Assembly (NCBI RefSeq): GCF_023256195.1
Contig: NZ_JAGDWX010000010.1
Span: 62,001 to 126,000 of the forward strand
Origin: Acidithiobacillus sp.
GTDB lineage: Bacteria > Pseudomonadota > Gammaproteobacteria > Acidithiobacillales > Acidithiobacillaceae
Direction: 5' to 3'
DNA: 64,000 nucleotides
Shown: piece after piece, positions 35,395 through 35,701 of the stretch
Layout: the number at the start of each line of letters is the position of its first letter
How positions within the stretch are numbered: the stretch's first letter is position 1
The notes under the pieces: model-generated
What the model was told of the DNA's origin: nothing
The model's input: only the letters and a program-made list of their open reading frames with translations
Database searches by the model: none
Program-made: the position numbers and the translations under genes

Positions 35395-35701
35395 TGGCGG
35401 AGGCGGTGAGATTCGAACTCACGAGGGGCGTGAACCCCTGCCGGTTTTCCGTACCCGCTATGGCTTTCGCCACGACCCTAGGGCCTTTGGGGTCTGGATC
35501 ATGCCTTCACCCTAGCCGCTTCCGGGCCTTAGGTGGGAACCGTCTGATCTCTACACCTTCCAGATCGCTCCGGCTTGGCTCGGCATTACCTCGGACAGCA
35601 TCCAGGGGCTTCGCCGAATTTGATTCCCTTCACCACCACCGTTTCCCGTGATGGGCTCGATGTTTCAAGACCGGTGCATTCAACCACTCTGCCACGCCTC
35701 C
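35395..35701 (-). tRNA. tRNA-Ser(UGA), split gene interrupted by an intron in the anticodon loop; CCA encoded
   Basis: Exons GGAGGCGTGGCAGAGTGGTTGAATGCACCGGTCTT + GAAAACCGGCAGGGGTTCACGCCCCTCGTGAGTTCGAATCTCACCGCCTCCGCCA fold into a complete type II tRNA (acceptor, long variable arm, T arm); 5' exon 35667-35701, 3' exon 35395-35449. Confidence 0.93.
35450..35666 (-). mobile_element. 217-nt group I intron (Azoarcus/IC3-like) in tRNA-Ser(UGA), inserted after U34
   Basis: Core strings ATCAAATTCGGCGAAGCC, GGTAATGCCGAGCCAAGCC, GAAGGTGTAGAGATCAGACGG..CCCACCTAAGGC, GGTGAAGGCATGATCCAG, GTGGCGAAAGCCAT; U at 5' splice site, terminal G. Confidence 0.93.

Follow-up and report, generated by a model that had tools for sequence, protein, structure and literature searches.

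A small group I intron of the bacterial tRNA kind interrupts the anticodon loop of tRNA-Ser(UGA) in the Acidithiobacillaceae

The window analysed here, a stretch of 64,000 nucleotides from a contig of an Acidithiobacillus sp. genome, carries on its minus strand (35701-35395) a tRNA-Ser(UGA) gene that is interrupted in the anticodon loop by 217 nt lying between U34 and G35. The gene is 307 nt long, the intron occupies gene positions 36-252, and the three parts are as follows.

35667..35701, minus strand: 5' exon of tRNA-Ser(UGA), 35 nt, ending in C32 U33 U34, i.e. CCGGTCTT; placed by ARAGORN on the joined exons and by empty-site alleles in relatives
35450..35666, minus strand: group I (IC3-like) intron, 217 nt, with no ORF on its own strand and a terminal omega-G at 35450
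35395..35449, minus strand: 3' exon of tRNA-Ser(UGA), 55 nt, starting with G35 A36, i.e. GAAAACCGG, and ending in an encoded CCA

ARAGORN reads the joined exons as a tRNA-Ser(tga) of 90 nt that has the entire cloverleaf and the long variable arm of a type II tRNA; given the unspliced gene it reports no tRNA, and its intron mode likewise misses the gene. From the sequence of the window alone the splice junction is ambiguous, with GAAA beginning both the intron and the 3' exon. The uninterrupted 90-nt gene of relatives aligns with the two exons and nothing else, and these empty alleles, together with the need for a U·G pair at the 5' site and a G at the intron end, place the junction at U34|G35. 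A preliminary description of this DNA had proposed a split tRNA-Ser with a 217-nt insert, and its coordinates are correct to the base; every core string that it listed is found in the sequence, as are its terminal G and its GTGGC-GAAA-GCCAT hairpin, and its remark that the intron lacks an ORF agrees with our failure to find any of at least 80 aa on the intron strand. No direct repeats were found flanking the tRNA-Ser(UGA) gene.

When 96 genomes were searched with the 307-nt gene, the intron turned up at the same site in 16 of 29 Acidithiobacillaceae genomes (the window's own included), in all four genera of the family and with identities of 81-100%. Chance is ruled out as the origin of the split gene by its recurrence at one site in these 16 genomes. 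One carrier copy (L046) is incomplete because it ends at a contig edge, both exons are intact in all 15 full-length copies, and intron length ranges from 210 to 221 nt across all carriers. Other Acidithiobacillaceae genomes have an uninterrupted tRNA-Ser(UGA) with a clean empty site, and both genomes from the sister family in the same order have an intronless Ser(UGA) gene. In several genomes, filled and empty alike, the tRNA gene adjoins gatB, which indicates that the filled and empty sites are orthologous. A scan of named genome records for the core pattern returned 12 contigs, from Acidithiobacillus ferrianus, A. ferriphilus, A. ferrivorans, A. ferruginosus and A. sulfuriphilus, the remainder being three Acidithiobacillus sp. 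metagenome-assembled genomes (MAGs) and four MAGs with no label beyond Proteobacteria. The close named relatives are thus Acidithiobacillus species, and the guess in the preliminary description that the host is an acidophile was right.

The insert folds into the following helices, all of them read on the minus strand.

35656..35669, minus strand: P1, exon CUU (35669-35667) with internal guide GAG (35658-35656) and U·G at the 5' splice site; 100% paired in 15 rows
35634..35653, minus strand: P2 hairpin with a GAAA loop (35645-35642); two-sided changes in 5 of 7 pairs
35535..35628, minus strand: P3, GGGAATC (35628-35622) with GGTTCCC (35541-35535); two-sided changes in 5 of 7 pairs
35580..35617, minus strand: P4 (35617-35613 / 35584-35580) around P5 (35608-35605 / 35592-35589); 97.8-100% paired
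35556..35578, minus strand: P6 and P6a; 100% paired, two-sided changes in 4 of 6 pairs
35496..35551, minus strand: P7, GAGATCA (35551-35545) with TGATCC (35501-35496); 97.6% of cells paired in 77 introns
35509..35534, minus strand: P8; 100% paired, with A-U to G-C change
35453..35493, minus strand: P9.0 (35493-35491 / 35455-35453), P9a (35485-35474) and P9 with a GAAA loop (35473-35460); pairing in the precursors

We examined the core in an alignment of 15 introns whose hosts are 11 Ser, two Leu and two Ile tRNA genes. Standard pairs fill 97.3% of the cells of the P3-P8 core, including the P3/P7 pseudoknot, and 17 of its 32 pairs show two-sided changes; when the partner strand is slid by 1-3 bases as a control, pairing falls to only 20-50%. 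For an independent test of P7, a covariance model was built with P3 and without P7, and 77 introns were aligned by that model. On this alignment, which had not been fitted to P7, 97.6% of P7 cells are paired and there are 73 two-sided changes. Among 15 full-length Ser precursors, 98.1% of the cells of P1, P2, P9.0, P9a and P9 are paired, with compensatory variation in P2 and P9a, while almost no variation is seen in the P1 U·G, in P9.0 or in the P9 stem. The P1 that had been proposed from a GAGCCC near the 5' end of the intron is borne out in its inner part, in that all 15 rows of the alignment share CUU:GRG and the splice-site U·G; beyond a U·C mismatch, the outer GG:CC portion is in competition with P2. 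The intron ends in G, and P9.0 adjoins the 3' site. By analogy with known group I anatomy, the guanosine-binding pair is presumed to be G35549-C35497 in P7.

The insert also has the features of subgroup IC3, namely a length of 217 nt, a short P5 without P5abc, GNRA loops on P2 and P9 (both GAAA, L2 and L9) and a U34/G35 site in the anticodon loop. The covariation of the core and the P7 pairs on the unfitted alignment identify it as a group I intron, one that belongs with the small, IC3-like introns of bacterial tRNA genes; the identity first suggested from core strings is therefore supported by covariation across the entire pseudoknotted core.

The Rfam model for group I introns (RF00028, Intron_gpI) gives no match to the intron at either gathering or permissive thresholds, and it also misses all five other Ser introns tested (L032, L034, L036, L039 and L044). 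The preliminary description had named the lack of a group I model hit as an outcome that would count against it, and for RF00028 that outcome was formally obtained; however, the same model accepts the related introns L080, L092, L155 and L160 above its gathering score, and these belong to the same alignable family as the Ser introns (91-112 bits with the covariance model built here). Since alignable relatives score above its cut-off, the missing match is a false negative that reflects the limited sensitivity of RF00028, which is a detection tool and not a defining feature of such introns. A tmRNA match at 17 bits, low-scoring and below cut-off, falls on the tRNA 3' half and was rejected.

These features suggest a familiar course of events. 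The pre-tRNA would fold so that a guanosine held at the P7 G-C pair attacks the 5' splice site marked by U·G in P1; the freed U34 would then attack after the terminal G of the intron, and the joined product would be a tRNA-Ser(UGA) that reads UCA. That a group I intron leaves the pre-tRNA in this way to give tRNA-Ser(UGA) accounts for the locus as a whole, and we regard it as almost certainly correct, with catalysis and its timing deduced from conserved sequence and structure. The Azoarcus tRNA-Ile(CAU) intron, an IC3 ribozyme of solved structure, has a similar size and order of elements, GAAA loops on P2 and P9 and a 3-bp P1. The Ser intron differs from it in its host tRNA, its insertion point and the sequences of P3, P6a and P9a; L070, a relative of the Ile(CAU) type, aligns directly with the Ser intron. 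A real intron might nonetheless need a host protein, such as a synthetase or an RNA chaperone, in order to splice in vivo. Some group I introns are known to splice with the help of host factors (PMC3984707), and the growth conditions of the host are unlike those of a test tube, but all of the core helices, the GAAA loops L2 and L9 and the short P1 match those of independent self-splicers of the same type, and we consider such a requirement quite unlikely.

The range of host genes was surveyed by 768 class and phylum genome searches, whose sets overlap and which cover about 740 Pseudomonadota genomes. Exon matching in these searches identified mostly Leu hosts; others were Ile(CAU), Arg(UCU) and further genes resembling Arg or Lys tRNAs, some of these labels being provisional given the small tRNA reference set. 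In the roughly 740 sampled Pseudomonadota genomes, where weak matches were typed in part, no serine host was recognised outside the Acidithiobacillaceae. Several individual hosts may be recorded here. The tRNA-Arg(UCU) introns of several Gammaproteobacteria (L103, L118-L123) form a well-supported branch of their own, the tRNA-Leu(CAA) introns L053 and L154 have a 5' exon that appears to end in C and not U, and L093 and L104 lie in genes that look by eye like tRNA-Lys(UUU).

The closest relatives found are the Leu introns of Gammaproteobacteria, mostly with 74-78% core identity to the Ser intron, and the Ser introns fall together with introns from Leu(UAA) and Leu(CAA) genes of other Gammaproteobacteria, supported at 99/95, in a tree of 132 columns in which many branches are weak. 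The tRNA-Leu(UAA) introns share with the Ser intron the insertion after U34 (a likeness that the preliminary description had pointed out and that the exon matching confirms), the CUU at the end of the 5' exon and the core; the Ser introns are set apart by their tRNA-Ser(UGA) host and by a P7 variant, AUCA/UGAU, that is confined to them among the 77 aligned introns. Because the nearest relatives are gammaproteobacterial Leu introns at the same loop position, a Leu-to-Ser transfer is suggested, and there was probably one old movement of a Leu intron into the Ser gene of the family ancestor via the shared CUU, its direction and route being read from the relationships of present-day introns.

Within the family, two changes on a GatB tree of 27 genomes are enough to explain the presence of the intron (mean of 8.9 after shuffling; as low a number in none of 500 shuffles). 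In the intron tree genera g2, g3 and g4 are separate groups and the two g1 introns come together at 74%, deeper branches being weak. All of this fits an intron present in the ancestor of the Acidithiobacillaceae and passed on mainly by vertical descent with two losses, although the root of the tree is open to doubt. A fuller scenario, in which the Leu intron moved once into the ancestral Ser(UGA) gene via CUU and has been kept without an endonuclease because it is useful to the host, for example in controlling the supply of the UCA-reading tRNA, is speculative and on balance unlikely.

The patchy presence of the intron in the Acidithiobacillaceae, and the occurrence of its relatives on plasmids and in one phage record, might instead be taken to mean that it is currently mobile and spreading among tRNA-Ser genes. 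Against this, it encodes no endonuclease (the overlapping ORFs of at least 80 aa are all antisense), two changes suffice on the GatB tree, and most genera stay apart on the intron tree; moreover, the plasmid and phage searches returned partial, distant relatives only, with no match covering more than 64% of the intron and none above 80% identity. We judge present mobility to be very improbable.

Two of the records from these searches may be described here. A related intron (108.8 bits) lies in a tRNA-Leu-like gene on a Bradyrhizobium conjugative plasmid (L199, CP094621.1, 160779-160912), where the matched stretch has no annotated features. An uncultured phage record of 595 kb (L198:1250-1800, in LR756511.1, 407732-410822, reverse complement) has an IC3-like intron core (46 bits) that adjoins what resembles the 3' half of a tRNA-Leu; a reading frame like that of an HNH endonuclease lies immediately upstream of P7. 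According to a 2014 review, the phage introns observed by then were all in protein-coding genes (PMC3984707).

How far the cell depends on splicing turns on the number of Ser(UGA) genes. RF00005 marks 39 tRNA-like places in the window's genome, and the Ser genes among them are GCU, GGA and CGA; the pattern GGTCTTGAAAAYCG, which marks the anticodon loop of an uninterrupted Ser(UGA), is absent from the assembly. The split gene is accordingly the sole Ser(UGA) gene of this assembly, the case that the preliminary description had put forward conditionally, and a pattern search likewise found no second Ser(UGA) in 14 of the 16 intron-bearing genomes. GGA and CGA anticodons are not known to read UCA, a codon that accounts for 5 of the 2818 counted in ordinary genes of the window. 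With no other Ser(UGA) gene found, splicing would probably be required to decode UCA in the window's genome, essentiality being deduced from this gene content. The assembly is also without some other tRNAs, for example Ile-GAU and Ala-UGC, so a Ser(UGA) gene could have been missed. In two intron-bearing relatives, G018 and G026, an extra intronless Ser(UGA) lies in tRNA arrays or clusters, and splicing may thus be dispensable in some carriers. That the gene has decayed into a pseudogene whose intron is dead, UCA being read by another tRNA, is scarcely credible: two relatives do have an intronless Ser(UGA) elsewhere, but the exons form a perfect cloverleaf, exons and core are kept across four genera with compensatory changes, and a substitute is lacking from the window's assembly and, by pattern, from those 14 genomes.

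The extra intronless tRNA-Ser(UGA) genes in the tRNA clusters of these two intron-bearing relatives (L194 and L195) are divergent. These clusters are likely to be the mobile tRNA arrays known in Acidithiobacillus, of a kind described for that genus (PMC5468388). The window's own genome also holds, at C19:2380-2452, a tRNA 3'-half fragment resembling tRNA-Arg(UCU) (L069; RF00005 30 bits, missed by ARAGORN) that looks like the attachment-site remnant of an integrated element.

In the literature, the bacterial tRNA hosts named for group I introns are Leu, fMet, Ile and Arg (PMC4033280, PMC8450103, PMC3984707, PMC5733544), and one survey adds short inserts in Gly and Lys genes (PMC5733544). That 2017 cyanobacterial survey labels inserts of 22-49 nt as group I introns (PMC5733544); they are too short to be introns of the IC3-like kind. 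We found no report of a serine tRNA host in the main texts of the open-access papers searched, though an earlier record may exist elsewhere, and among the surveyed genomes Ser hosts occur only in the Acidithiobacillaceae, in keeping with the initial impression that a Ser(UGA) host is uncommon and perhaps undescribed. What appears to be new is the serine host; the kind of element is long known, and its mechanism is not new. Serine thereby joins the amino acids whose tRNA genes host group I introns in bacteria. Because ARAGORN and Rfam both miss the gene, genomes of this sort appear to be without a UCA-reading tRNA. For the family itself, the orthologous locus beside gatB, filled in some genomes and empty in others, offers a natural allelic series, a small ribozyme candidate from an acidophile and a case in which a change of intron host from Leu to Ser may be studied.
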